Position numbers and translations under genes: made by a program. The notes under the pieces are model-generated. The model did no database searches, had not been told where the DNA came from, and saw only the letters and a program-made list of their open reading frames with translations. From assembly GCF_000420665.1 (NCBI RefSeq), contig NZ_ATVJ01000001.1, positions 1,364,001 through 1,428,000 of the forward strand: a stretch of DNA of 64,000 bases. Direction: 5' to 3'. Shown here one piece after another: positions 4,264-57,851 of the stretch. This stretch comes from Ponticaulis koreensis DSM 19734 (lineage in GTDB: Bacteria; Pseudomonadota; Alphaproteobacteria; Caulobacterales; Hyphomonadaceae). Each line of letters opens with the position of its first letter. Within the stretch, counting starts at the first letter, position 1.

Positions 4264-6312
4264 TCAGAAATTATACCGCACTCTGAAACGGACCTGACGT
4301 GGCTCTACGGGTTTGAAGTGGATATCCTCGACCGGATTGGCTGCACCCTGAAACTGGCTTTCGTAGAAATAGCTGATGTCATTATCCTCCGCGTCGAGGG
4401 CATTAAGAACCTCAAGACCGAAGTCTACGTTTTCCCATGTGTAGCTGGCGCCCAGGTTCAGAACAGTGGTCGGGTCTGTTGTGACCGAGCCATCTTCGAT
4501 CAGCGGGGCTTTGCCCAGATAGCGTAGACGCGCGGTGAATACCCATGGATCGAAATCGAGGTGCATTCCGGCGCCGACAACGCTTTCAACGGCATTTGGA
4601 ATGGCGGTATCAGGGCCAGCCACATTGAACTCCGCATCCGTGAAGGCCGCACTCGCATCAAGTGTCAGCCAGTCATTCGGGCGCCAGAAGCTGGTCAGCT
4701 CAACGCCGGTGCGTGTGGTGGCGTCATTGATTTCAGTCGTGCCTGCATCGCCGACAAAGATCAGTTCAGAGTCGAGTTCCAGCGTGAACAGGGCGGCTGA
4801 CAGGTTGAAGTCGCCGCGTTCGAAACGTGCACCCAGCTCATAGCCTTCGCCTTCAGAGAAGAGCGGGGCCTGAGTGGCGGGCTGGCCGCTCGCCGGATCT
4901 GTCTGGATCACGGTGCCGCGAATGTCATTGGTGTGGAAGCCGCGGCCATAGCTCGCATAAAGCTCAACATGGTCGCTCGCGCGCCATGCCAGGGATGCGT
5001 TAGGCGTCACCAGCGTATCATCGATTGAGCCGGAGTTTTGGGGCACGATATCGGCGGTGACTTCACCATCATAATAGTCTGCGCGAAGGCCGAATGAGCC
5101 ACGCAGCGTTGGTGTGAAATGGTATTCGGCCTCACCCCATACGCCGAGGCTGAATTCCTCTACCGAGCCGCGATTGACCGTTTGCAACACAGTCGGGCCT
5201 GCCGTGAGTTCCAGGCCAACATCCGAGACATCGTCATAGCGCAGTTGTGCGCCCGTATGAATCTCTAGGCGGTCGCTCAATTCCCTTTCATGTCGGATGG
5301 AGCCGCCCATAATTGTGCGCTCGTCAAACTGGTGGAACTCATCACCATTTACCGGATCGGCAAGGAAATAGGTGAAGTTGGACGTGAGGCTGAAAGAGGA
5401 GTCGACATAGAAGGCCGAAATCTCGGTGGACGCGCCATCGCCGTGATCGAAGCCGAGCTGGCCGGACAGGCTATAGCGTGAGACATCTCCGCCCAGATCA
5501 TCATCGAGAGACCCGAACCGGCTAATCGTGCCGTTGCTTACGAGTCGTTGCGGGATCTGCTCGCTGGAGACCCAGTTATTGTCATATGCCGTTGCGGTGA
5601 GCGTGTAATTCCACGTGCCAAAGTCGCCGGAAAGGCGCGCAAGGCCACTGATCTTGTCGACCTCCTGAGCGTTTTCCCACGGGCCGTCATAGTTCTGGAA
5701 TTCACCGGCGATGAGGAGGGTGGTTGTTTCTGACAATGGCGTTGAATAGCCGCCTACCGTGCGCAGATACCCGTCTTCACCAATTTTCAGTTCGACGAAG
5801 TTCTCAGCGAGTTCGGAATAGAGCGTGTATGTGCCCGCGCCCGCTACGGAGAAGTCGCCTGTATCTGCGAAATAGGGCCCTTTCTGATAGTCGACCCGTT
5901 CCACGAGTTCCGGAATAATCGGGTTCAGGTCGAGATAGCCCTGACCATGCCCGTGCGAGCGCATGGAAAGCGGCACGCCATCCACAACGGCTGAGAAGTC
6001 CGAGCCATGATCAAGGTTGAAACCGCGCAGGAAAAATTGGTTCGCTTTGCCTTCTCCGGAGTGCTGGGTGGCGATGACGCCGGGAATGACTTCAACGAGC
6101 TCACCAGCGCGGGAAAGAGGGCGGTCCTCGAAATCAGCATAGCCGACAACGCCCTGTGAAGCGGCCTGCGCTTCGCCAATCAGCGCAAGGCCTCGGCCGT
6201 GAACCTCTACCGTGGAGAGGCGGTTTTCTTCGTCTGTGACATCTGCGGTTTGAGCATAGGCCGAAACAGAGGTGAGGCCAGCCAGCAGCGCTATGGCGCT
6301 TGTTCGTATCAT
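4264..6312 (-). CDS. TonB-dependent outer membrane receptor
   Basis: Outer-membrane beta-barrel importer energised by TonB, about 682 residues from the ATG at 6312. That start gives a clean signal peptide (MIRTSAIALLAGLTSVSAYA) and has GGAAG just upstream; a further in-frame ATG at 6381 would put 23 charged residues before it. After the signal come a probable TonB box (STVEVHGRG) and a plug domain (RAGELVEVIPGVIATQHSG, FFLRGFNLDHGSDF, ERVDYQKGPYF), then a long barrel ending RFRVRYNF with a terminal Phe. The plug has a His-containing loop (SMRSHGHGQG). Substrate is unknown; a metal or metal chelate would fit the His loop, but that is a guess. A perfect palindrome lies upstream. Confidence 0.9.
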   Translation of the reverse strand: MIRTSAIALLAGLTSVSAYAQTADVTDEENRLSTVEVHGRGLALIGEAQAASQGVVGYADFEDRPLSRAGELVEVIPGVIATQHSGEGKANQFFLRGFNLDHGSDFSAVVDGVPLSMRSHGHGQGYLDLNPIIPELVERVDYQKGPYFADTGDFSVAGAGTYTLYSELAENFVELKIGEDGYLRTVGGYSTPLSETTTLLIAGEFQNYDGPWENAQEVDKISGLARLSGDFGTWNYTLTATAYDNNWVSSEQIPQRLVSNGTISRFGSLDDDLGGDVSRYSLSGQLGFDHGDGASTEISAFYVDSSFSLTSNFTYFLADPVNGDEFHQFDERTIMGGSIRHERELSDRLEIHTGAQLRYDDVSDVGLELTAGPTVLQTVNRGSVEEFSLGVWGEAEYHFTPTLRGSFGLRADYYDGEVTADIVPQNSGSIDDTLVTPNASLAWRASDHVELYASYGRGFHTNDIRGTVIQTDPASGQPATQAPLFSEGEGYELGARFERGDFNLSAALFTLELDSELIFVGDAGTTEINDATTRTGVELTSFWRPNDWLTLDASAAFTDAEFNVAGPDTAIPNAVESVVGAGMHLDFDPWVFTARLRYLGKAPLIEDGSVTTDPTTVLNLGASYTWENVDFGLEVLNALDAEDNDISYFYESQFQGAANPVEDIHFKPVEPRQVRFRVRYNF

Positions 6313-6419
6313 TCTTCCATCCCTTGATCTGGCGGCCCGAAGCAGTGCTGCGGGCCGGAAGGGATTTGATACGGGGTCCACTACACCGAAGTGCAGTAAA
6401 TAACGGTAGCGTAACGCAG

Positions 6420-6431
6420 TGTAACGTTACA
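6420..6431. promoter_or_regulatory. 12-bp palindrome upstream of TonB-dependent receptor
   Basis: TGTAACGTTACA is a perfect palindrome about 108 bases upstream of the receptor ATG, and GTAACGCAGT just before it repeats half of it. It looks like an operator for a dimeric repressor. Which regulator binds is not deducible. Confidence 0.4.
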
Positions 6432-6463
6432 TATTTCCCGATATAGGTATAAAAATCAGTCGG

Positions 6464-7288
6464 TTAGTCGGACGTGTCAGAGAAGTTGCCAACGCGTTTT
6501 TCCATGCCTGCTTTCACCGCTTCGACCTGATTTGGCTTGCCGATGATTTCATCCTGCAGAACGGATTCTGTCAGAAGGGCTTCAGCGTCGGTCGCATCGA
6601 ACAGGGCGTTGAACATCTTCTTGGAGCGTTTCACAGAAGACGGAGAGCGTTCTGCGATCTCACGCGCCAGAACCATCGCATCATCGTATGGGCTTTCGGA
6701 CACGTGTGTTGCAAAGCCGTATTCCTTGGCCTGCTCGCCGGAGAAAATGCGCGCGGTGTAAGACAGCTCTCTCAGAATGTCTTCGGACGCGATAGCGCGC
6801 ATAACCGGCGTGCCGCCCATATCCGGAATGAGACCCCATTTGGCTTCCATGATAGAGAGCTTGGTTTCCGGGTGCATGAAGCGGATATCGGCGCCAAGGG
6901 TCAGCTGAAAGCCGCCGCCAAAGGCGATGCCATGAACGGCCGCAATGACCGGCGCGTGAAGATTGCGCCAGCCCCAGACAATCTGTTGAGCGCGGTTGGC
7001 AATGCCATGCGTGCGATCAGCAAGACCGCCGCCATGTTTTACAGTGGCCGAGCCGCCATTACCTTCTGCGGTACGTTTGAAATTGCTGGTGTCGAGGCCT
7101 GCACAAAACGCACGTCCTTCGCCGGACAGGACAACAACGCGGACCTCAGGATGGTTTTCTAATTCGGCTGCCGTATCGATCAGCGCGTCGATCATGGCAT
7201 TGTCGAGCGCGTTCATTTTGTCAGTGCGGACCATGCGTACATCCGCAATGCCGTTCTTGATTGTGTAGGTGATGCGCTGCTCGCTCAT
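6464..7288 (-). CDS. crotonase (enoyl-CoA hydratase/isomerase) family protein
   Basis: Acyl-CoA-binding enzyme of 274 residues, cytoplasmic. The oxyanion-hole segments are AFCAGLD and HGIAFGGGFQLTLGAD. By alignment in the head with classical enoyl-CoA hydratase, the first catalytic Glu (GGGCE) is Gln here (GGGFQ), the second Glu is retained (SIMEAKWG), and an Asp occupies the GLIPD position, as in dienoyl-CoA isomerases. It may therefore be an isomerase or another crotonase activity rather than a hydratase. GGGGA precedes the ATG. It stands as a single gene upstream of the TonB receptor on the same strand. Confidence 0.88.
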   Translation of the reverse strand: MSEQRITYTIKNGIADVRMVRTDKMNALDNAMIDALIDTAAELENHPEVRVVVLSGEGRAFCAGLDTSNFKRTAEGNGGSATVKHGGGLADRTHGIANRAQQIVWGWRNLHAPVIAAVHGIAFGGGFQLTLGADIRFMHPETKLSIMEAKWGLIPDMGGTPVMRAIASEDILRELSYTARIFSGEQAKEYGFATHVSESPYDDAMVLAREIAERSPSSVKRSKKMFNALFDATDAEALLTESVLQDEIIGKPNQVEAVKAGMEKRVGNFSDTSD

Positions 7289-7369
7289 GGCGTTTCCCCG
7301 AGGCTGATCTTCGTTTTGGCGGAGACTAGACCCGGGGCGCCGTTTGGCAAGCCATACCGTTGGGTGAGG

Positions 7370-7825
7370 TCAGTTAAACACTTCCGCGATTTCCGGATTC
7401 GTGCGGGCTTTGGGGGCGCGGCCATATTTATTGTCAAACCGGTCACCTTCTTCAGCGCAGAAAAAGAGAAGCGGGAACATGCCAAGGGCGGTGATTGGCG
7501 GAATGAGAAGGAAAGCCCAGCGCGCGGTTCGATTGGTGTCGTGCAGCCGTCTTGCGGTGGCGGCCAGCATTGGAAGGAAGCTCAGGAAGGTGAATATCAA
7601 TTGTGACCCGATCGCTATCATAGCTATCGTTCCCGCAATTGTTTTGTCCGGTGTGGTCTGAGATTCAGCTATCAGAATAAAAGATACCGCGGAGGCCAGC
7701 CACAGAATCGTATGGACGCCAACCCATGCGAGTACGATTAGCCAGAAGTTTTTCCGGGACAGCCGACCGTTGAACTCAAACAGATTGAGGCGGAGCACCC
7801 AGAGGAATTTGGAAATGCCAGACAT
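7370..7825 (-). CDS. DUF805 family membrane protein
   Basis: Small inner-membrane protein of 151 residues. The signature is FEFNGRLSRKNFWLIVLAW near the start, followed by three to four hydrophobic segments and the conserved ARRLHDTNRTARWAFLLIPP. The tail FDNKYGRAPKA is typical. Function of the family is unknown. It follows a second DUF805 gene by 23 bases on the same strand, so the two are likely co-transcribed. Confidence 0.85.
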   Translation of the reverse strand: MSGISKFLWVLRLNLFEFNGRLSRKNFWLIVLAWVGVHTILWLASAVSFILIAESQTTPDKTIAGTIAMIAIGSQLIFTFLSFLPMLAATARRLHDTNRTARWAFLLIPPITALGMFPLLFFCAEEGDRFDNKYGRAPKARTNPEIAEVFN

Positions 7826-7848
7826 ATTTGAATTTCAGTTGAGCCGGA

Positions 7849-8253
7849 TCAGAAGACGTCGTGCGTTGGCCTTTTCGGGTCAGGGCCGTATTTGTTCGGG
7901 CCAGGTGTGCCTTCCGTGACGAAGTGGAAAAGGAGGAAGAGAAAGCCGATTAGCGGAACTAACCAAATTAGTACCCAGAAGCCGCTCATATCCTTGTCGT
8001 GAAGGCGTCGCACCGCCATAGCGAGATTGGGGATGATACAAGCAAGGCCGAACAGCCAGTACAAAACCATCGGGATCCAGATCAGTATCATGCCGATATC
8101 GCCAAGCATGCCGAAAATTCCGCTGACGAAGATCATGGCCACGTAAGCGATGAACTGCATCAGCACCGGCCACCAGTATTCGGCGCGGCGTGCGCGATCC
8201 TGAAAATTGAAATAGTTTGAGAAGTAAAGGCGAATTGCTGTGCCAAAATCCAT
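7849..8253 (-). CDS. DUF805 family membrane protein
   Basis: A 134-residue inner-membrane protein with the family pattern: FNFQDRARRAEYWWPVLM at the start, several hydrophobic segments, VRRLHDKDMSGFWVLIWLVPLIG in the middle and GPNKYGPDPKRP at the end. A run AGGGGGAAA precedes the ATG. It is the first gene of a two-gene DUF805 unit with 7370-7825; the two are paralogous but clearly diverged. Function unknown. Confidence 0.88.
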   Translation of the reverse strand: MDFGTAIRLYFSNYFNFQDRARRAEYWWPVLMQFIAYVAMIFVSGIFGMLGDIGMILIWIPMVLYWLFGLACIIPNLAMAVRRLHDKDMSGFWVLIWLVPLIGFLFLLFHFVTEGTPGPNKYGPDPKRPTHDVF

Positions 8254-8363
8254 GAGATTTCCCCCTGTGGAAGGCAGCCCCCTGCTGCCTTACCGGTCAG
8301 GGTGAATTCTGAACATGGAGTTGGCGTGTCTGGCAAGCACGAATTGTCTCGAATGCAGGCAGT

Positions 8364-8396
8364 AAAAAACCGGCCCACCTGAGTCAGCCGGTTTTT
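8364..8396. terminator. bidirectional rho-independent terminator
   Basis: AAAAACCGGC pairs with GCCGGTTTTT around a 12-base loop. It lies just past the stop of the minus-strand secreted protein at 8417 and upstream of the DUF805 pair, isolating the two transcripts. Confidence 0.8.
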
Positions 8397-8416
8397 CATT
8401 TTAAAGGGCTATCAGC

Positions 8417-9310
8417 CTAGTTGCTGTAAAGCTCGGAGATAGCGAGCGTCGCTGGCTGATTGTCGCCAAAGAAGCTGCCAACCCAGATGTCATACTGGCC
8501 GCTCATAGGAGACGCGATATTGACTGATGCGTTGAAGTTTTCACCGGAGTCATCGTCGCAGATCCAGCTGCCATCCGGCTGGTTGATCACCAGTGTGGTG
8601 TCGTCGGAAGACATTGTGGAGATGATGAGCGGGAAGATGTCTCCAGCTGCATAGTTCAGGCGGAAGTCAGGCGCCGTTGCGATCATGCCTGCACAGCCAA
8701 CAACTTCGGCGTCAACGGTGCCGCCGGATGTGACCTGCACATTGTACGGGTCAGGGTCAAAGCCGGATTGGAGGTCAACCGATCCGTATGTTGGTGCGAG
8801 CGAGAAGTCTGGCATTCCGCCGCTCATTGAGCCGCCGTCGTCGTATGACGAGCCTGCCATAATTTCAGAGATATAAAGCGTGGCTTCTTCGTTTCCGCCA
8901 CCGAATGCGCCAACCCAGATATCATACTGGCCGGACATTGGCTGGTTAAACTCAAGCATCGGGTTCAGGTTACCCGCGCTGTCATCGTCACACGCCCAGC
9001 TGCCATCCGGCATATTCACAACGAGCGTCGTGTCGGAATTGGATTCTACGGACAGGATGAGCGGAAAAAAGTCGCCAGCCAGATAATCGACGCGGAAGTC
9101 AGGTGCGTTTGCAATCATGCCAGCGCAACCGATTGTAGACGCGTCGACCGAACCACCAGAAATAAGATCAACTTCATACGGATCAGGTGTGAAACCGTTT
9201 TCGAGGCTTACAGAGCCGTAGCCTGGCTGCAGAGTGAAATCCTGCGCACTGGCAACGCCAGCAGAACAGATAAGAGCGGTAGACGCGATAAGCGCGATAG
9301 TCGTTTTCAT
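8417..9310 (-). CDS. secreted protein with two tandem copies of a PPC-like domain
   Basis: Exported protein of about 297 residues starting at the ATG at 9310, which follows AAGGGGG and gives the signal peptide MKTTIALIASTALICSAGVA. An in-frame ATG at 9334 would add 8 residues before it. The mature part is an internal duplication of about 125 residues. Both halves contain YGSV, then DPDPY or TPDPY, then IGCAGMIA or VGCAGMIA, APDFR, AGD-FPLI, DTTLV, PDGSW-CDDDS and PMSGQYDIWVG. The DTTL...PDG...DDDS...G-Y-IWVG pattern resembles bacterial pre-peptidase C-terminal beta-sandwich domains. No catalytic domain is present. Each half keeps two Cys, which could form a disulfide. Role unknown. Confidence 0.8.
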   Translation of the reverse strand: MKTTIALIASTALICSAGVASAQDFTLQPGYGSVSLENGFTPDPYEVDLISGGSVDASTIGCAGMIANAPDFRVDYLAGDFFPLILSVESNSDTTLVVNMPDGSWACDDDSAGNLNPMLEFNQPMSGQYDIWVGAFGGGNEEATLYISEIMAGSSYDDGGSMSGGMPDFSLAPTYGSVDLQSGFDPDPYNVQVTSGGTVDAEVVGCAGMIATAPDFRLNYAAGDIFPLIISTMSSDDTTLVINQPDGSWICDDDSGENFNASVNIASPMSGQYDIWVGSFFGDNQPATLAISELYSN

Positions 9311-9606
9311 AATGTCCCCCTTCGGACCCTTCATCAGTGATTACACCTTAGTGCACCATGCCAAATGTCTGGAAGATGAACAGATTTCAGATTCCGGAAA
9401 TTTCTGGCTTTGACGAAGTATTCTCAAGCGAAAATCATAAGTTTCAAGCAATTTCAGCAGGGATGTTGTATTTGCCGCGCTCTGGCGCGTGATCGTTTCG
9501 TGACAATCCGGGCGTTCCATTGACCAGAATAGCGCAATTAAGGTAATGACGCGGCTTGTTTTTCAACAGGGCAGGAGAGCCCTTTCAGCATTCAGGAGTA
9601 CATGTC

Positions 9607-10791
9607 ATGCGCGAAGCCATGCTTCCCGTTTACGCCCCGCCAGAAGAAGTCTTCGTGCGAGGTGAAGGCATGCGACTGTATACTGAAGACGGCACGGCCT
9701 ATCTCGACTTCATCGCGGGCATTGCGGTGAACGCGCTTGGTCATGCGCATCCTAAAATGGTTGCCGCTCTGAAAGATCAGGCTGACAAGCTCTGGCATAC
9801 GTCAAACATGTTCCGCGTACCGGCTGGCGAACAGCTGGCGGAGAAGTATTGCGCGAACACATTCGCCGATCAGGTCTTCTTTACCAACTCTGGTACAGAA
9901 GCGATCGAGTGCGCGCTGAAAACAGCCCGTAAATATCACTGGGCGAATGGCGAGCCGCACCGTCAGGAAATCCTGACATTCTCCGGCGCCTTCCATGGCC
10001 GCTCTTTCGCAGCGATCAATGCAGGCGGCAATCCGGCTTATCTGGAAGGCTTTGGCGAGCCTATGGCGGGCTTCACCCAACTGCCATTCGGTGACCATGA
10101 CGCGCTGAAAGCGGCGATCACCAAAGACACATGTGCGGTTCTGGTAGAGCCGGTACAGGGCGAAGGCGGCGTGCGCAGCATTCCTGAGCATTGCCTCGTC
10201 TCCCTGCGCGAGCTTTGCAACGAGACCGGCACGCTTCTCATTTATGATGAAGTCCAGTGCGGCGCGGGCCGTACAGGTAAGCTGTTTGCGCACCAATGGG
10301 CAGATGGCAAAGCCGATCCGGACATTATGGCTGTGGCTAAAGGCGTTGGCGGCGGCTTCCCGTTCGGTGCGTGCCTCGTCACGGAAGAAGCAGGCAAGGG
10401 CATGCGTCCTGGCTCCCACGGCTCGACCTATGGCGGCAACCCGCTGGCTATGGCTGTCGGCAATGTCGTGTTCGACGAGATGATGTCCGAAGGCTTCCTT
10501 GAGGGCGTTCGCCGCACGGCCAGCAATCTGCAGCAGGGCCTTGCAAGCCTGAAAGACCGTCACCCTGATATGGTTGAGGATGTGCGCGGCAAAGGTCTCT
10601 TGGTGGGCCTGAAGCTGAAATCCGCACCTAAGCCGGTTCAACAGCTGGCGCGCGCCAAAAAGCTCCTTTGCGGCGTTGCGGGCGACAACGTTCTGCGCCT
10701 TGCGCCGCCTCTCATTGCTACGGATGCTGATATCCGTGAAGCTATCGACATTCTTGATGCTTGCCTGACAGAGGCCGCTTCGGCTGGCTGA
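9607..10791 (+). CDS. argD: acetylornithine aminotransferase
   Basis: PLP-dependent class-III aminotransferase of arginine synthesis, converting N-acetylglutamate semialdehyde to N-acetylornithine; about 394 residues. Recognised by [51 protein letters not shown] and the PLP lysine in [12 protein letters not shown] (about K245). The ATG at 9607 has AGGAG 8 bases upstream; an in-frame TTG at 9556 is less likely. It heads a tight cluster with the S41-like gene, argF and hslO. The gap 9311-9606 shows no recognisable site beyond being AT-richer than the genes around it. Confidence 0.95.
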
Positions 10792-10792
10792 C

Positions 10793-12031
10793 ATGACGGT
10801 CAAGCGGCTGCATCTCGCACACAGCGCCCTGAAGGTGGCTATCTGCGCCGTTTCCATTTTCTGGAGCGGGGGCGCGTCTGCGAGTCCGGCCCAGAATCGG
10901 ATACAGGCCAATGTTCAGGCGGCTTGCGAACTGGTTGCCACGCGGTATGCCTATATTGACGAACTCACGATGGATCTCGGCACCTTTTGCGAGGATCTTA
11001 CGGCTGACGCAGCGGGAAGATCTGATCTGTTGCCGGTTCTGGAAGAGCTCGTCGCGGCGCTGCGGGACAATCACGTCAGCCTCAACACCAATTCCTCTAC
11101 ATCTCCTCGTCTGGCGCCTTCGGGAGCGGACTACGCGGTGCGTCCTTCAGGCGAAGGTCTGGCGGTTGTCACCGGCGTACGTCCTGCATCATCGGCGGCG
11201 CTGGCAGGACTCATGCCCGGAGACCAGATTGTAGCGATTGATGGTCGTCCGGTAGACGACATTATCTCAGCCTGGGAAGCCTATGAGTCAGAGGACCAGC
11301 AGGTCAGCCGCGATATGTCTGCGCTCAATCAGGCTGCAGCCGGACAACGTGGTGCGCCGCGTTCTGTAACTCTGAAAACGAGTGAGGACGTTAGCGAACT
11401 GCAGCTGGATGATCCTGTGCAGCGGCCTTACCATGGCCCGGTTACAGCGCTGATACTACCTGGCGAGGTGCTTTATGTCAGGTTCAACAACTCACTGGGT
11501 GAGACGGACACAGTCGCCGCTTTTGAGGCAGCTATCGAGGATCATGCGGATACGCATCGCTGGATCATTGATCTGCGCGATACGCCATCTGGTGGAGGTA
11601 CTGACGTTGCCGAGCCCATTCTTGGCCGGTTTGTCGACGAGCGCGCCAATTATCAGCGCTTCAGCATCGCAGACGGCAGCTATGTCGACCGATATGTCGA
11701 TCCCCGCGGTCCTTGGACCATCAGCGGAGATGTCATTGTTCTGGTTGGTAACTGGACGGGGTCGATGGGCGAGGGTATGGCCGTCGGGTTTGATGCGCTT
11801 GGCATTGGAGACGTTGTGGGCTCGCAAATGGCGGCGCTGCGCGGCGGAATAGAAGGACTCAATCTGCCATCGGGTCTGGTTCTGCGATTGCCAACCTATG
11901 ACCTGACGCACGTGGACGGTACACCTCGGCATCACTGGATGCCGCCATATGAGCAGATCGCAGATAATGGGAATGGCCCCGATATCGCGTTGGCTCAGGC
12001 AATCTGGATGCTGACGTTAGAAGAGGACTGA
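10793..12031 (+). CDS. secreted S41-family protease-like protein with PDZ domain
   Basis: Exported protein of 412 residues beginning 1 base after the argD stop. An N-terminal signal ([20 protein letters not shown]...GGASAS) is followed by a helical N-domain, a PDZ domain at about 110-155 ([19 protein letters not shown]) and an S41 catalytic-like core. The core includes [13 protein letters not shown] and [23 protein letters not shown], where Ser of TGSMGEG is in the nucleophile position of tail-specific proteases. A matching catalytic lysine is not obvious, so activity could be lost or of tricorn type. Its place between argD and argF is odd because a periplasmic protein has no known part in arginine synthesis. 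Confidence 0.8.
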
Positions 12032-12035
12032 GGGG

Positions 12036-12956
12036 ATGAGACATTTTTTAGACATGTGCGATATCGCAGCGTCCGAGCTGAGAGCCATTCTGGATGACGC
12101 GAAGGCGACAAAAGCCGCGCGTCAGGGCTGGCCGAAGGGCAAGGTCGATGCGGGCGCGCCGCTCGCCGACCATATCCTTGCGATGATTTTCGAGAAAAGC
12201 TCTACGCGGACCCGCACGAGCTTTGATGTCGGCATGCGCCAGCTTGGCGGCCAGACCATGTTCATGACCTCGTCTGACATGCAGCTCGGCCGCGGCGAGA
12301 CGATTGAAGACACAGCTAAGGTTCTGTCCCGCTTTGTCGATATCGTCATGATCCGTGCGAACAACCATCAGGATGTTGTCGATTTTGCTGAGACGGGCTC
12401 TGTGCCGGTCATTAACGGCCTGACGAATAAGTCTCACCCGTGCCAGATCATGGCGGACCTGCAGACGCTGGAAGAAAAAGGCCTCGACCTGAAAGGCGCG
12501 CGTATCGCCTGGGTAGGCGATGGCAATAATGTCTGCGCGAGCTTTATCGACGCTGCGCCGAAATTCGGCTTCTCGCTCGCGGTTGGCACAGCTATTGGCT
12601 ATGAAGCGCCAGCAGACCGTATTGAGGCGGCCCGCGCAGAGCAGGGCCGAATTGACGTATTCACCTCTGCGGCTGACGCCGTTGCCGGCGCGGATGTCGT
12701 CGTGGCGGATACTTTCGTCTCCATGGGCGATAAAGATGCAGATAAACGTCTTTCAGACCTTGCACCCTTCATGGTGGATGACCAGCTAATGGGCGCGGCC
12801 AATGGAGGGGCTATCTTCCTCCACTGTCTCCCGGCGCACCGCGGTGAAGAAGTTTCAGCCAGTGTGATTGACGGGCCGCAATCTGCGGTTTTTGACGAAG
12901 CTGAGAACCGGCTTCATGCACAGAAGGCAATTTTGAAATGGTGTCTGGAAACCTGA
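12036..12956 (+). CDS. argF: ornithine carbamoyltransferase
   Basis: Joins ornithine and carbamoyl phosphate to citrulline in arginine synthesis; 306 residues, cytoplasmic trimer in the family. The carbamoyl-phosphate site [15 protein letters not shown], the segment [12 protein letters not shown] and the ornithine-site [11 protein letters not shown] are all intact. AGGGG lies directly before the ATG, 4 bases after the previous stop. Its last 19 bases overlap the start of hslO, indicating translational coupling. Confidence 0.96.
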
Positions 12957-50918: not shown

Positions 50919-51049
50919 AAACAAGATATAGTGCGCCGCAGCGCCTGTGTCCTGCCTGCATGTGACGTAAAGTGTCACTGCTAACACCTTGAGTAACATG
51001 CGCACTATTTATATAGTCTACTCTCATAAATATTACGGGAGGAAGGCGA

Positions 51050-51775
51050 ATGTCTTTTACGAAGCGATATAAGCTCTTATTCGTGACTGCGGTTTCCGCG
51101 CTGGCGCTGGCGGCATGTTCTGATCAGGGTGCAGACGAGCATGCCGACATGAACCATGATGGAATGGACCATGCGTCCATGGATCACGGCTCTATGGACC
51201 ATTCCGGTCACGAAGGCATGGAAATGGCGAATGCGAATACGCCGTCTTATGGCGCCGCGGAGTATGTTGCTGACTTTACGCTGATGGGCAGTGACGGCCA
51301 GATGCATACGCTGAGTGATCATTCCGATGCACCAGCAGTCGTTCTGATGACGCACGGTGTGGGGTGCCCGATCGTGCGTAATGCCGTGACTGATTACAAA
51401 GAACTCGCTGCGCAGTTCGAGGATCAGGGTATCCCGTTCTACATGATCAATTCCAATATTCAGGACGACATTGACGAACTGGCCGCGGATGCTGAGCTTT
51501 ATTCCATCACCATGCCAATTCTGGATGACGAAGATCAGTCGGTTGGCCGTCAGATGGGGTATGACCGTACCGCCCAGATTTACGTGCTAGACCCGTCAGA
51601 TGATTTTCGCGTCATGTATTACGGCTCGCTCAATGATCGCCAGACTTATGAGCGCCAAAGGAATGAAGCCCAGAATCATTTCGCAGCAGAGGTTCTGAAC
51701 CAGATGCTGGCAGGCGAAGAGGTTACCGTAACGGCACCTGCGATCAGAGCGGGATGTATGATTAACTTTCTCTGA
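51050..51775 (+). CDS. His/Met-rich redoxin lipoprotein (short form)
   Basis: A 241-residue lipoprotein (signal AVSALALAACSDQ, lipid Cys 23) with a Met/His-rich segment at about 31-62 (MDHASMDHGSMDHSGHEGMEM) of the kind that binds copper. A redoxin/AhpC-like domain follows (about 72-225) with VVLMTHGVGCPIVRNAV (Cys 106), FYMINSNIQDD and DRTAQIYVLDP. It ends at the conserved IRAGCMINF (Cys 236). The next gene contains the same module almost word for word, then continues into cytochrome and monooxygenase domains, so this gene is a one-module paralogue. GGGAGGAAGG lies just upstream of the ATG. Confidence 0.82.
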   Translation: MSFTKRYKLLFVTAVSALALAACSDQGADEHADMNHDGMDHASMDHGSMDHSGHEGMEMANANTPSYGAAEYVADFTLMGSDGQMHTLSDHSDAPAVVLMTHGVGCPIVRNAVTDYKELAAQFEDQGIPFYMINSNIQDDIDELAADAELYSITMPILDDEDQSVGRQMGYDRTAQIYVLDPSDDFRVMYYGSLNDRQTYERQRNEAQNHFAAEVLNQMLAGEEVTVTAPAIRAGCMINFL

Positions 51776-51877
51776 TCACTTGTCCTTTCTTTAGTGTTTT
51801 ACTCGGGTTTCTCTTGAGTGTTGGGCACTACATTTGATATAGCTACCTCCAGATAATAATACACGGGAGGTAGCCTT

Positions 51878-53947
51878 ATGGCTGTTTTTAAACGAGGCAA
51901 TTTGCTTGTCGCGACTGCGTTCACTGCGCTTTTGCTGGGCGCATGTTCGCAAGAAGGCGGAGAAGACCATGCGGCTATGGATCATTCCGCCATGGATCAC
52001 TCCGGTCATGATGGCATGGTTATAGCGACGGCTGCGACGCCTGTCAGCGGCCCGCCGGAATATATCGATAACTTCCGCCTGATCGATCATAACGGCGACA
52101 GCCATGAGCTGTTCTACCACGCAGACGCTCCTGCGGTGGTGCTAATGACGCACGGTGTCGGCTGCCCGATCGTGCGCAATGCCGTTACCGATTATAAAGC
52201 GCTGCGCGACCAGTTCGCGGATCAGGGCGTTCAGTTCTACATGATCAACTCCAACATTCAGGATGATCGTGACGAGATCGCTGCTGACGCCGAGCTTTAC
52301 GGCATTGATATGCCAATCCTTGATGACGTGACCCAGCTGATCGGCGAGTCCATGGGCTATGACCGTACAGCGCAGGTTTACGTGCTGGATCCGGCGCAGG
52401 GCTTCAAAGTCGTCTATTATGGCGCGCTGAATGATCGTCAGACTTATGAGCGTCAGCGCAATGAAGCCAACAACCACTTTGCGGCAGATGCTATTTCGCA
52501 GGTGCTGGCGGGCGAAGACGTCACGGTTGAGGCACCCGCTATTCGCGCTGGTTGCATGATCAACTTCCCGGAGCAGCGCAATCAGGCAGAGCATATGCAA
52601 ATTTCTTATGCTGAAGAGATTGCGCCTATCCTGCGCGAGAACTGCGCTGAGTGTCACCAGGAGGGCGGTATCGGCCCTTGGGCGATGACCGATTACGAGA
52701 CTATTCAGGGCTGGGCGCCGATGATCCGCGAAGTGGTTCGCACGGATCGTATGCCGCCCTGGCATGCTGACCCGTCTATCGGCACATTCCATAATGCGCG
52801 TGACCTGACTGTCGAAGAAACGCAGACGCTGGTTCACTGGGTTGAAGCTGGCGCACCGCGTGGTGAGGGCGAAGACCCACTGGCCGGTCTTGATCTGCAT
52901 GCGCCGGACTGGCCGCTTGGTGAGCCGGATCTGATCCTGACGCTTCCTGCCTACACCGTGCCAGCAACAGGTGTTGTCGATTATGCTTATCCGGTCGTGG
53001 AAAATCCGCTGACTGAAGATACATGGCTGCGTGCTACGACAGTTCGAGCCGGCAACCGCGAAGTCGTCCACCACGTGCTGTCTGGCTATATGTCTGAAGT
53101 CCCTGCAGATGGGCGCGGTTCGACATCGCTCTGGGAATTCTCAACCGGCGGCTATGCTGTGGGTGCTGAATCTACCGTGGCGCAGGAAAACTCCGGCGTG
53201 CCATTCCCTGCAGGCGGCGCAATTGGCTTCCAGATGCACTACACGCCTGTGGGCCGTGAGATCGTGGATCAGACACAGATCGGTTTCTACTTCCAGGAAC
53301 AGCCGGAGCTTCTCAACCGGACTGTCGTAATTCTGGATGCAAGCCTCGACATTCCAGCGAATGAGCCGCGTCACGTCGAGACGGCTTATCTGGAATTTCC
53401 GTATGACGCAGAGCTGATTTCGGCATTCCCGCACGCACACTATCGTGGCTATGCGTCCGATCTGCGTATCCAGTATCCGGATGGAACTGAAGAAACGCTT
53501 CTTTCTCTGCCGCGCTATGACTTTAACTGGCAGCGTGGATACGAGTTTGAAGAGCCGGTCTCCATTCCTGCGGGATCGCGCCTGATCTCGGATTATGTCT
53601 ATGACAACTCCAGCGCCAATGCGGCGAACCCTGATCCGAACATTCAGGTGACATGGGGCGAGCAGAGCTTTGAAGAAATGCTCTATACGTCACTGTCTTT
53701 CCGCTGGGTGGGTGAGACGACGGACAACCGTCTCGATCACCAGTCAGCTGAAATGAACGAGACGCGCATGTTCACCGCTATGGATGATAATATGGATGGA
53801 CAGCTCACTGAAGACGAGCTGACGGGCATGTTGGGTAGCCGTATGCGCGCCGGCTTTGGCCGTATGGATCTTGACGGAAACGGCTCTGTAGACATGGAAG
53901 AATATGTCACGGTGAACCGGATGATGCGTGCACGCGGTCAACAATAG
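51878..53947 (+). CDS. redoxin / cytochrome c / copper monooxygenase-like / EF-hand fusion lipoprotein
   Basis: A 689-residue envelope lipoprotein (lipid Cys 23). Domain order: Met/His-rich segment (about 30-50, MDHSAMDHSGHDGM); redoxin (about 60-215, Cys 96 in THGVGCPIVRN, Cys 226 in IRAGCMINF); cytochrome c-like module (about 238-330) with the haem motif CAECH (Cys 256, 259, His 260) and Met-containing TDRMPPWHADP; a dopamine-beta-monooxygenase-like C-terminal domain (about 350-620, VVHHVLSGYM, PFPAGGAIGFQMHYTPVG, FPHAHYRG with possible copper His); then two EF-hand loops (DDNMDGQLTEDE and DLDGNGSVDMEE) near the end. Likely periplasmic copper- and electron-transfer function; substrate unknown. 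Confidence 0.85.
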   Translation: MAVFKRGNLLVATAFTALLLGACSQEGGEDHAAMDHSAMDHSGHDGMVIATAATPVSGPPEYIDNFRLIDHNGDSHELFYHADAPAVVLMTHGVGCPIVRNAVTDYKALRDQFADQGVQFYMINSNIQDDRDEIAADAELYGIDMPILDDVTQLIGESMGYDRTAQVYVLDPAQGFKVVYYGALNDRQTYERQRNEANNHFAADAISQVLAGEDVTVEAPAIRAGCMINFPEQRNQAEHMQISYAEEIAPILRENCAECHQEGGIGPWAMTDYETIQGWAPMIREVVRTDRMPPWHADPSIGTFHNARDLTVEETQTLVHWVEAGAPRGEGEDPLAGLDLHAPDWPLGEPDLILTLPAYTVPATGVVDYAYPVVENPLTEDTWLRATTVRAGNREVVHHVLSGYMSEVPADGRGSTSLWEFSTGGYAVGAESTVAQENSGVPFPAGGAIGFQMHYTPVGREIVDQTQIGFYFQEQPELLNRTVVILDASLDIPANEPRHVETAYLEFPYDAELISAFPHAHYRGYASDLRIQYPDGTEETLLSLPRYDFNWQRGYEFEEPVSIPAGSRLISDYVYDNSSANAANPDPNIQVTWGEQSFEEMLYTSLSFRWVGETTDNRLDHQSAEMNETRMFTAMDDNMDGQLTEDELTGMLGSRMRAGFGRMDLDGNGSVDMEEYVTVNRMMRARGQQ

Positions 53948-54099: not shown

Positions 54100-54410
54100 G
54101 ATTTTATGCTTTCGATTTTACGCGGGTTAATCTATTTTAAGTAATTCGTTAACGATTTTCGAAGTTCTGTTAACCTTTTAGTCTTCTTGTTTATTAACCT
54201 TTTCGACAAATTTCCTCGAGAATAGACCGTTTGCCTGTTAGCTTTTCTTAGTTATCCACATTTTTACGTTAATTTTCTTGCCCTGCATGGTTAACGAAAG
54301 GTTTACCTTTTCAATTTTTCGCTGCATTATGGAGGGTAGAGTAAACTGTAAGCCCAGGTTCAGAAGATCCGGACCCCTTGGCGCGTGGGGCTGCGCCGCG
54401 GAGCACCGTA
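54100..54410. promoter_or_regulatory. AT-rich leader with a perfect DnaA box upstream of the autotransporter
   Basis: The 404-base gap after the terminator is AT-rich. It contains one exact DnaA box TTATCCACA (54252-54260) and several TTAAC-type words, including two copies of TTAACCTTTT (at about 54171 and 54195) and GTTAACG (54149, 54290). TTAA words are CtrA-like half-sites, but no exact TTAA-N7-TTAA pair was found. A long leader, or cell-cycle control, would explain it. Confidence 0.35.
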
Positions 54411-57400
54411 ATGAAAACTGTATTGTATTCATCCGTCGCACTTGTGTCTCTTGCCGCCGCAGGCAGCCTTTCTGTCGCGCATGCGCAAGACAGCTATGAC
54501 GTCGCTACTGCTGAAGAGTCTCCGTATGCATCACGCGCAACAGCGCAGTGGGGCAATCTGGATACATTTTGGGGTAATCTCGACACCTTCGAGGGCGACG
54601 TATCCGGGCAGTGGGGTAATCTGGACACGTTCTGGGGTAATCTCGATACATTCTGGGGTAACCTCGATACCTTCTGGGGTAATCTCGATACCTTCTGGGG
54701 TAATCTCGACACCTTTAATGGCGACGCTGCGGCCCAGTGGGGTAATCTCGATACGTTCTGGGGAAATCTGGATACGTTTTGGGGCAACCTCGATACATTC
54801 GGCGGTGATGCGTCCGCGGAATGGGGCAATCTCGACACCTTCTGGGGTAATCTCGACACCTTCGATGGCGTGATCGTCACGCAATGGGGCAATCTGGATA
54901 CATTCGGCGATTCAACTGCCCAATGGGGCAATCTGGATACGTTTTGGGGCAATCTCGACACGTTCTGGGGTAACCTTGATACATTCTGGGGCAACCTCGA
55001 TACCTTTGATGGCAATCCTGCAGAAGCGCTTTGGGGTAACCTTGATACATTCTGGGGTAATCTCGATACTTTCTGGGGTAATCTCGATACTTTCTACGTC
55101 GCCTTTTCGGTTCCGGACGGATATGATCCGGAGACCTATTACGGCCTGTTAGACCCGCAGTGGGGCAATCTGGATACCTTCTGGGGTAATCTTGATACCT
55201 TTAACGGCAATCTCGATACGACATGGGGCAACCTCGACACGTTCTGGGGCAACCTCGATACGTTCTGGGGCAATCTCGACACGTTCTGGGGTAATCTCGA
55301 TACTTTCTGGGGCAATCTCGACACGTTCTGGGGTAACCTGGATACCTTCTGGGGCAATCTCGATACGTTCGAAGGCAATGAGGAGGCTTATGCGCAGCTT
55401 CTGTCAGATCTCGGCTCATTCTATAATCTGAGCCAGGATCAATATGCGCCGCTCGTTGCGTTCCATACCGGTCAGGATTTCTGGTCGGGTTTCGCTCAGG
55501 AAATCTTCGAGCGCTATGGTATCGATCCAACTGATCCGGCATCTCTGGCAGAGCTTTCAGCCGTCGAGCGTGCCCAGTTCTTCGTGGACTGGCATGATGG
55601 TCTGATGATGTTCAACGGCATCGACATTGTTGATGGCTGGATGCCGACAATCAACTGGTCTCCGGCGCTTACTCAGGACCATGATTACAATACGCAGGCT
55701 GTTATTGGCCTTCTCGATTTCGGCGTCACAGACGAAACCCTGCTGACGCACGATGTAATTTATTCCGGCGGATACGACACGGCGGATACGTCTACACACG
55801 GTTCAGCGGTTGTGAGCCTTCTGGTCGCGCCTCACGATGGTGTCGGCATTATGGGCATCGCGCCAAATGCAAGCGTCGCCGTTTATAACCCGTTTGATGA
55901 AACCCTGACCGCAGGTTGGGAAGACGTTGAGACGGGTGTGCATGCGCTCGTCGACAATGGTGCGCGCATTATCAACATGTCTCTTGGTGTTCCTGAAACA
56001 CTGATCTCCGAAGAGTGGGCAGACATCATTTCCGGCGTCGATAATGAAGGCGTTGTCTTCATCAAGGCGGCTGGCAATGAAGGTGTTACCGGCACAGACG
56101 TTGAGTGGGCGGATGATGGTAGCCTCGAGCAGCTAATCATCGTTGGTGCGCTCGGCTTTGATGGTGAGATCGCAGACTGGTCCAATACGCCAGGCGATGC
56201 CTGCTTCATCGTTGATGGCGATTGCAGTGCGGTGATGAATAATTTCATCGTCGCGCCAGGCGAATTCATCCTCGTATCTGATGGCAATGGTGGTGTTATG
56301 CGTCAGGCGGGTACGTCATTTGCTGCGCCTCTGGTCTCTGGTACAGCCGCGCTTATCCATGGTGCCTGGCCTTGGTGGAAAGACCATGCCGAGGAAACCG
56401 TTGATGTGATCCTTCGGTCTGCAACTGACCTTGGCGAAGAGGGCGTTGATGAAGTCTATGGCTGGGGCCTCCTGAATGTAGAAGGTGCACTGTCGCCGCT
56501 CAATTGGAGCCGCCTGCGCTTCTACGCAGACCATGACGGTGATGGCGACTTTATCGGTGGCTGGCGTGGTAAGTCCGCAAACTGGATCCGTCGCGCATAT
56601 CTCCGCTCAGATGTGTTGCAGCTTGAAAACGATGGTGCGTATGTCGTGGCGCTCGAGAGCGTTGGCGACACATTCCGCGACTTCCGTATCCCGCTATCTA
56701 CCCAGCTCTACGGAACAGAATCTGTTATTGATGGTGTAGAGCACGATCGCCGCTTCCAGCGTCACCTGCATCAGCGTTTCGTTGATTGGGCAAGCGAAGG
56801 GTCAAACTTCGGCGACGTTCAAAGTACTTCGGTCAATCTTGGTCTGAATGGTGACTGGGCTCTGTCTATGCAGGCCGCACCATACACGCCGGGTTCTGAT
56901 GTGCGTGAAGGTGAGCTTCCGTTCCAGACAGACATCATGTTGTCCGCGCCAGAAAGCCAGACTGCGTTCCGCTTTGGTCATGGCGACGGTGCTGCGCGCC
57001 TCAGCTCTAACCCTGTCTTTGGCTTCTACTCAGACTTTGACGTTGAAACTGGTGGTGTGAACCCGCTGCTGGGGCTCGCGTCTGGTGGCTCTTATGCCTC
57101 TACGCAATTCGCTGTGAGCGAGCGCCTGTCGATCTCTGCAAGCGTGACCGAAGCGTCTGACGATCATTCGTATATTGATCCGCTGACAGGCCAGCGCGTT
57201 TATAACGCGGATGATCTGGTCGACTTCAATGCGAGTGCGGCGAATATTTCTATGAATTATGCGCTGACCGGTCACCTGAACCTTTCTGTCGACTACACTC
57301 AGTTGACCGAGCGAGACAGCCTTTTGGGCGGTCAGGGCACCGGCTTCCTTTCGCTTGAGGGCGGGAGCGTTACCGATGCTGTGACACTTGGTTCTGATGT

Positions 57401-57851
57401 CGACCTTCCATTCGGCATGCAGCTCGGCCTGTCTGCAACGGTTGGCGAAACACGCGGTACCAGCTTTGCTGACGGTGCGCTGTCTCTGAGCGATGAGGGG
57501 CTGACATCGACTGCCTTTGCGATTGGTCTTCGCAAGGATGGTCTGATCGGTGATCACGACACATTCCGCCTGAGCGTTGCGCAGCCTCTGCATGTTGAGG
57601 CCGGGTCGTTTGAGTTTACGACGCTCGAAGTTGTGAACCGTGAAACCGGGGAACTCGGTCTCGTCTCCCAGACATGGGGCGTGGCTGACACAGGTCGCGA
57701 TTATAATCTCGAAGCGAGCTACGGCACTGCTCTGATGGCCGGTATGGCTGAAGTCTCTGCATTCTCTCGCGTCGAGTTTAATGAGACGCCGATCGCAAAT
57801 GAATCTGAAACAGATTACGCGGTCGGAGCGCGGTTTGCTATTCGCTACTAA
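54411..57851 (+). CDS. subtilase autotransporter with WGNLDTF heptad array
   Basis: A 1146-residue secreted protein from the ATG at 54411 (GGAG 7 bases upstream); an ATG at 54378 would add 11 residues before the signal. Domains: signal peptide (MKTVLYSSVALVSLAAAG...AHA); 29 perfect WGNLDTF heptads plus one altered (NGNLDTT) at about 47-320; a helical linker; an S8 peptidase with Asp 436 (GLLDFGV), His 463 (THGSAV) and Ser 636 (GTSFAAP); a passenger spacer with an Asp-rich calcium-type stretch (DHDGDGD); and a C-terminal autotransporter barrel (about 870-1146) ending VGARFAIRY. The protein should be exported across the outer membrane, with the repeat array on the outside or in the passenger. 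Function of the repeats is unknown. Confidence 0.9.
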   Translation: MKTVLYSSVALVSLAAAGSLSVAHAQDSYDVATAEESPYASRATAQWGNLDTFWGNLDTFEGDVSGQWGNLDTFWGNLDTFWGNLDTFWGNLDTFWGNLDTFNGDAAAQWGNLDTFWGNLDTFWGNLDTFGGDASAEWGNLDTFWGNLDTFDGVIVTQWGNLDTFGDSTAQWGNLDTFWGNLDTFWGNLDTFWGNLDTFDGNPAEALWGNLDTFWGNLDTFWGNLDTFYVAFSVPDGYDPETYYGLLDPQWGNLDTFWGNLDTFNGNLDTTWGNLDTFWGNLDTFWGNLDTFWGNLDTFWGNLDTFWGNLDTFWGNLDTFEGNEEAYAQLLSDLGSFYNLSQDQYAPLVAFHTGQDFWSGFAQEIFERYGIDPTDPASLAELSAVERAQFFVDWHDGLMMFNGIDIVDGWMPTINWSPALTQDHDYNTQAVIGLLDFGVTDETLLTHDVIYSGGYDTADTSTHGSAVVSLLVAPHDGVGIMGIAPNASVAVYNPFDETLTAGWEDVETGVHALVDNGARIINMSLGVPETLISEEWADIISGVDNEGVVFIKAAGNEGVTGTDVEWADDGSLEQLIIVGALGFDGEIADWSNTPGDACFIVDGDCSAVMNNFIVAPGEFILVSDGNGGVMRQAGTSFAAPLVSGTAALIHGAWPWWKDHAEETVDVILRSATDLGEEGVDEVYGWGLLNVEGALSPLNWSRLRFYADHDGDGDFIGGWRGKSANWIRRAYLRSDVLQLENDGAYVVALESVGDTFRDFRIPLSTQLYGTESVIDGVEHDRRFQRHLHQRFVDWASEGSNFGDVQSTSVNLGLNGDWALSMQAAPYTPGSDVREGELPFQTDIMLSAPESQTAFRFGHGDGAARLSSNPVFGFYSDFDVETGGVNPLLGLASGGSYASTQFAVSERLSISASVTEASDDHSYIDPLTGQRVYNADDLVDFNASAANISMNYALTGHLNLSVDYTQLTERDSLLGGQGTGFLSLEGGSVTDAVTLGSDVDLPFGMQLGLSATVGETRGTSFADGALSLSDEGLTSTAFAIGLRKDGLIGDHDTFRLSVAQPLHVEAGSFEFTTLEVVNRETGELGLVSQTWGVADTGRDYNLEASYGTALMAGMAEVSAFSRVEFNETPIANESETDYAVGARFAIRY
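54549..55370 (+). repeat. coding array of 29 WGNLDTF heptads
   Basis: Runs of identical heptads in nine blocks (2, 5, 3, 2, 1, 4, 3, 2, 7 copies), interrupted by short acidic spacers starting mostly with a Gly/Asp pair (EGDVSGQ, NGDAAAQ, GGDASAE). Synonymous codons vary between copies (GAT/GAC, CTC/CTG/CTT, TTC/TTT, AAT/AAC), so the residues, not the DNA, are preserved. Spacing is strictly 21 bases inside blocks. Confidence 0.95.

Follow-up and report, generated by a model that had tools for sequence, protein, structure and literature searches.

A PHM/DBH-type dicopper monooxygenase domain fused to c-type haem and redoxin modules in a bacterial lipoprotein, with a tandem duplicate of the redoxin module

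The longer of two adjacent genes in the window (the whole 64,000-nucleotide stretch of Ponticaulis koreensis DNA analysed here) encodes a lipoprotein that joins four modules in one chain; as judged from the sequence and the predicted fold, its c-haem motif is intact, and so are its two copper sites of the PHM/DBH type. We read the long protein as a self-contained, periplasm-facing, envelope-anchored type II copper monooxygenase, whose own haem would replace ascorbate and whose redoxin would be accessory, and we put the probability of this reading at about 0.6. Animals make noradrenaline and peptide hormones with this kind of two-copper oxygenase. PHM and DBH are best known from animals, where they depend on ascorbate, and the delivery of electrons to their coppers, and the crossing of electrons between them, have long been debated. 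The PHM/DBH superfamily enzyme is known, while the built-in haem and thiol modules are the new part. No paper on a redoxin-haem-PHM bacterial family was found in the openly accessible literature, and one may exist elsewhere. A natural dicopper-haem(-thiol) fusion could allow electron delivery to be tracked spectroscopically within a single chain and, if active, the family would add to marine carbon turnover a class of envelope C-H hydroxylases that has so far been overlooked.

The two genes are plus-strand open reading frames with exactly the ends given in the preliminary description (Table 1). Both proteins begin with a signal peptide and a lipobox Cys23, followed by a Met/His-rich stretch (DHSAMDHSGHDGM and similar) and a redoxin domain (Pfam AhpC-TSA, 6.7e-13 and 1.1e-7 for the two proteins). 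After the redoxin, the long protein runs on through a CXXCH segment and a beta-rich region to two canonical EF-hand loops (Pfam EF-hand, 7.5e-8). Its AlphaFold model had a pLDDT of 89.6 and a pTM of 0.85; the leader was modelled at low confidence and is likely disordered. The order of domains first described, redoxin-cytochrome-copper monooxygenase-EF-hand, was borne out by Pfam, by the Pfam matches of relatives and by the predicted fold. The 'four functions' of that description likewise stand as domains (Pfam and fold); the Met/His-rich leader is real in both proteins, but is restricted to close relatives.

Table 1. Positions of the two genes and their features in the window.
Feature	Position	Strand	Remarks
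Short gene	51050..51775	+	redoxin lipoprotein of 241 aa; partial tandem copy, covering the 5' part of the long gene
Short gene, leader	51116..51247	+	lipobox Cys23 and Met/His-rich leader, residues 23-66
Short gene, Cys106	51365..51367	+	GVGCPIVRN; counterpart of Cys96 of the long protein
Short gene, Cys236	51755..51757	+	IRAGCMINF; second redoxin Cys, 5 residues from the end
Leader/RBS stretch before long gene	51825..51877	+	ATTTGATATAG...ACGGGAGG; counterpart before short gene at ~51003-51049
Long gene	51878..53947	+	689 aa lipoprotein: redoxin, cytochrome c, PHM-type copper monooxygenase, EF-hand pair
Long gene, leader	51944..52045	+	lipobox Cys23 and Met/His-rich leader, residues 23-56
Redoxin domain	52055..52570	+	residues 60-231; Cys96 at 52163-52165, Cys226 at 52553-52555
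c-type cytochrome domain	52595..52882	+	residues 240-335
Haem motif	52643-52657	+	CAECH
Met292	52751-52753	+	invariant; candidate axial Met
PHM/DBH-type dicopper monooxygenase domain	52919..53713	+	residues 348-612
CuH ligands His398-His399	53069..53074	+	
CuH ligand His454	53237..53239	+	MHY
CuM ligands His519, His521	53432..53440	+	HAH
CuM ligand Met601	53678..53680	+	EEM
EF-hand loop 1	53783..53818	+	DDNMDGQLTEDE
EF-hand loop 2	53867..53902	+	DLDGNGSVDMEE

The beta-rich region of the long protein gave no Pfam match at E < 1. When family members were scanned singly, 33 of 69 matched Cu2_monoox_C (PF03712) at E < 0.01; matches to this family model above the curated cut-off were found in 13 of 61 related genomes, among them the match of a sister paralogue in the same genome as the long gene (30.3 bits against a cut-off of 23). 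Over residues 348-642 the AlphaFold model matched human DBH and rat PHM, whose fold consists of two jelly-roll subdomains, with Z-scores of 18-21. Foldseek gave an E of 3e-13 for DBH, and the Z-scores were 21.4 for VIA (269 residues, 2.8 A) and 18-21 for PHM. A profile of the domain aligned His454, His519 and His521 with the HYH and HTH motifs of DBH at a weak E of 0.047. Because the direct profile match to PDB sequences is weak, the PHM assignment rests on the fold, the ligands, the Pfam matches of relatives and the bridging protein L123, described below.

In PHM, the CuM ligand set includes His242, His244 and Met314. The CuH ligands of PHM are His107, His108 and His172 (PMC6123673, from which the CuM set is also taken in part). 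The domain of the long protein shares the fold and all six copper ligands with PHM/DBH (PF01082/PF03712). Its CuH ligands were present in 97 of 97 relatives and in L123, and its CuM ligands in all 96 rows with letters at those positions. Unlike PHM and DBH as known, the protein is bacterial, its copper domain is fused to c-haem and redoxin, and ascorbate dependence would not be expected. It also differs from PHM in substrate-site residues. Rat PHM binds the peptide carboxylate with Arg240, Asn316 and Tyr318. At the equivalent positions, set by spacing from the ligands and not by residue-level superposition, the relatives carry Leu/Phe/Val (517), Tyr/Phe (603) and Ala/Ser (605), and the peptide-binding residues of PHM are thus not conserved there. 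Peptide amidation (PHM proper, EC 1.14.17.3) is therefore unlikely.

The cytochrome domain matched the cytochrome CBB3 family of Pfam weakly (1.6e-4, below the family cut-off), and its best structural match, the monohaem cytochrome PccH, was modest (Z 6.5). PccH and the haem domain of hydrazine synthase alpha (Z 4.7, profile E 0.0046) resemble it in the CXXCH motif and helix layout, but the similarity is low and their partners are unrelated. The redoxin fold was found with a structural match of Z 22.7, and both Cys96 and Cys226 are present. Thioredoxin-like proteins of known structure, 2cvb and 2ywo (Thermus), 3u5r (SMc02350) and 2ywi, are alike in fold (24-28% identity, Z 22-23), and 2cvb and 3u5r share the C-terminal GC-x-I motif; unlike the long protein, all of these stand alone, with neither haem nor copper domains fused to them.

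Which of these parts are conserved was judged from 97 relatives, gathered down to about 40% identity. Ten residues, Cys256, Cys259, His260 and Met292 of the haem domain and the six copper ligands, were present in 96-97 of the 97, with the invariance of Met292 slightly favoured because one of the six search seeds starts there. A separate 69-row alignment gave the same conservation of the ten, and we infer that Met292 is the haem axial ligand. The preliminary description had staked its case in advance on conserved ligands and a conserved haem motif, and in this it was upheld. The haem and PHM domains were joined in essentially every relative. In contrast to the haem and copper ligands, the remaining features come and go. 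Both redoxin cysteines were found in 73 rows, neither in 17 and Cys96 alone in four; among the paralogues in the same genome, L107 lacks both and L106 retains only the first. The EF-hand loops are canonical 12-residue loops with Asp at position 1 and Glu at position 12, and in the 70-71 rows that extend this far these residues (D636/E647 and D664/E675) do not vary; the EF-hand region is present in about 70 of the 97 relatives and absent from the remainder. At least six His and Met residues after the signal peptide were seen in nine of 94 rows; the L088 row probably counts among them only because its open reading frame was drawn too long. The alignments thus identify haem plus dicopper as the constant core, whereas the chemistry of the redoxin, the calcium sites and the copper-type leader are optional layers.

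A phylum-wide search recovered L123 (414 aa; genome G154, 1387-2631), a two-domain cytochrome c-PHM lipoprotein that matches both PHM Pfam domains (3.8e-14 and 2e-7) and retains all ten haem and copper residues. It resembles the long protein in these ligands and in its lipoprotein-like start, but it has neither redoxin nor EF-hand and does contain Cys in its PHM domain. This redoxin-free protein is possibly the ancestral form.

In the proposed mechanism, the haem would take single electrons from a periplasmic or respiratory pool and, as the fusion itself suggests, pass them to CuH. CuH would relay them to CuM, where O2 would be activated and a small organic substrate then hydroxylated at a C-H bond. 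The fused haem would in this way stand in for ascorbate, the donor in animal PHM and DBH. The presence of the haem-copper fusion in essentially every member, the redoxin-free L123 included, argues for the haem as a built-in donor, and the joint occurrence of haem and PHM domains with no conserved partner gene is as expected for a self-contained enzyme. Loss of the redoxin Cys pair in some branches places the redoxin outside the core reaction; it may be an accessory thiol unit that protects or reduces the copper and haem sites, or that loads copper. The EF-hands may provide calcium-stabilised packing or act as a sensor, and would be dispensable.

The preliminary description had suggested copper-linked electron transfer to an oxygenation or peroxide reaction. 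Oxygenation with copper-linked electron transfer stands as the likeliest reading on the predicted fold and the ligands. A peroxide function shared by the family is not supported, since the redoxin cysteines are absent in 17 relatives, including one paralogue in the same genome, while the haem and copper ligands are not lost. This same pattern weighs against the protein being an envelope copper-stress or peroxide-defence lipoprotein, in which the leader and copper sites would bind surplus copper and the redoxin and haem would remove peroxide or repair thiols. Such a role would suit the Met/His-rich leaders of both proteins and their redoxin Cys pairs, which are intact in the short and the long gene alike, and the leader does weakly match the copper-resistance protein CopI (2.6e-4). 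That match is of low complexity and confined to the leader, however, and at 20.8 bits against a cut-off of 200 is not a full-length family match. The leader is found in only about one in ten relatives, no copper-homeostasis gene was seen beside the pair when the neighbours were read by eye, and we consider this role unlikely.

The copper pair might instead serve another chemistry, such as N-dealkylation, sulfoxidation, peroxygenation or the modification of envelope proteins or peptides. The divergence at positions 517, 603 and 605 is consistent with this, as is the lack of Cys in the PHM domain of all 97 members, unlike animal PHM, which contains disulfides. Yet every ligand that bears the chemistry of the hydroxylating family is present, and we give such an alternative a low probability. 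That the haem and coppers only pass electrons between partners, as a scaffold with no oxygenation, seems highly improbable. Three redox modules do lie in one chain and the redoxin resembles ResA/TlpA-type thiol proteins, but CuM, the site at which PHM activates O2, is invariant, its Met ligand included.

The duplication of the redoxin module, also claimed in the preliminary description, was confirmed by protein and DNA alignments and by a tree. The short and long proteins align from Met1 through the last Phe of IRAGCMINF, and their genes are 71% similar over 608 columns of DNA, ending at 51768 and 52566; the RBS stretch shared upstream of both genes gives the 5' extent of the duplication. The short gene had been said to stop exactly where the long one runs on. 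The alignment supports this end point, but not as a chance cut: the similarity ends at the natural C-terminus of the redoxin fold, just after the second redox Cys, and therefore at a domain boundary. A tree built from 104 redoxin domains joined the short genes of the genus and the long genes of the same genomes in one clade (support 100/93) and placed the duplication inside the genus, later than the divergence of the TMED5 relative. On this tree, an old and independent origin of the short gene is rejected. The short branch was about 10-fold longer (0.32 versus 0.03), and between-species dN/dS was about 0.024-0.035 for the short gene and 0.016-0.019 for the redoxin part of the long gene, which rejects a decaying fragment. 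The tree placement, the longer branch and the low dN/dS together indicate, on sequence grounds, that the short gene is a recent, genus-confined partial tandem duplicate, fast-evolving under strong purifying selection and so altered yet retained. It would be a lineage-specific additional lipoprotein-redoxin unit under selection, probably acting either in trans on the long enzyme or as a copper-handling thiol lipoprotein. Stand-alone redoxins of the same type elsewhere (L114-L117 and L120, in other genomes) are older and unlinked. In one Ponticaulis genome (L027, 5264-7374, and L012), a redoxin frame overlaps a separate cytochrome-PHM-EF-hand frame; the split frames of L027 reflect either gene fission or an assembly frameshift.

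The fusion architecture was found at at least 564 loci in a GTDB scan, and the best 80 of these were mostly from marine Gammaproteobacteria and Hyphomonadaceae. No match was found in plasmid records. An even sample of the phylum contained a match in 3 of 398 genomes, indicating a patchy family. Relatives that carry the fusion often have it several times over. The richest genomes had about ten to thirteen matches, some of them fragments or stand-alone redoxins, and one fusion copy is retained in a SAR86 genome streamlined to about 1.3 Mb (G451, contig C9, 83821-85611). Clustering of the neighbours at 80 loci and inspection of 22 further loci gave no general partner gene, and an obligate two-gene system was rejected on this basis.

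Neighbours at the gammaproteobacterial loci were often of a catabolic type, which in some lineages included hydrolases, CoA transferases, LLM monooxygenases, molybdenum hydroxylases, MFS transporters and a TonB receptor. The paralogue L106 has a TonB receptor, a TetR regulator, a hydrolase and an MFS transporter as neighbours. Many Hyphomonadaceae copies, in contrast, lie amid housekeeping genes (pyruvate kinase, ATP synthase, sucCD) and are otherwise scattered; the paralogue L107 is between sucC and sucD (named by eye; region 4762-12684, contig C1). Catabolic context is thus not a general rule, as it holds for many gammaproteobacterial loci and L106 but fails for most Hyphomonadaceae copies. 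The multiple paralogues per genome, together with catabolic neighbours in some lineages, fit substrate diversification. Tentatively, at a little under even odds, the family could be a large bacterial clade of 'self-sufficient' PHM/DBH-type oxygenases, with c-haem in place of ascorbate and a thiol module that guards or metallates the copper, whose paralogues have diversified in substrate among marine Alpha- and Gammaproteobacteria, down to SAR86.

Several further features of these neighbourhoods were noted. Two small secreted proteins, similar to one another, flank L107. At eight gammaproteobacterial loci (L056, L064, L077, L078, L089, L091, L096 and L101), an oxidoreductase/SelD-related fusion (TIGR04369) lies 3' of the fusion gene, often with a glutamate-cysteine-ligase-like gene nearby (named by eye only). 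A subtilase is encoded at 54378-57851 of the window (PF00082, 1.7e-31), with an N-terminal third made up of a 21-base unit for WGNLDTF, repeated imperfectly about 36 times. In the TMED5 and Ponticaulis loci, too, a homologue lies 3' of this fusion gene.
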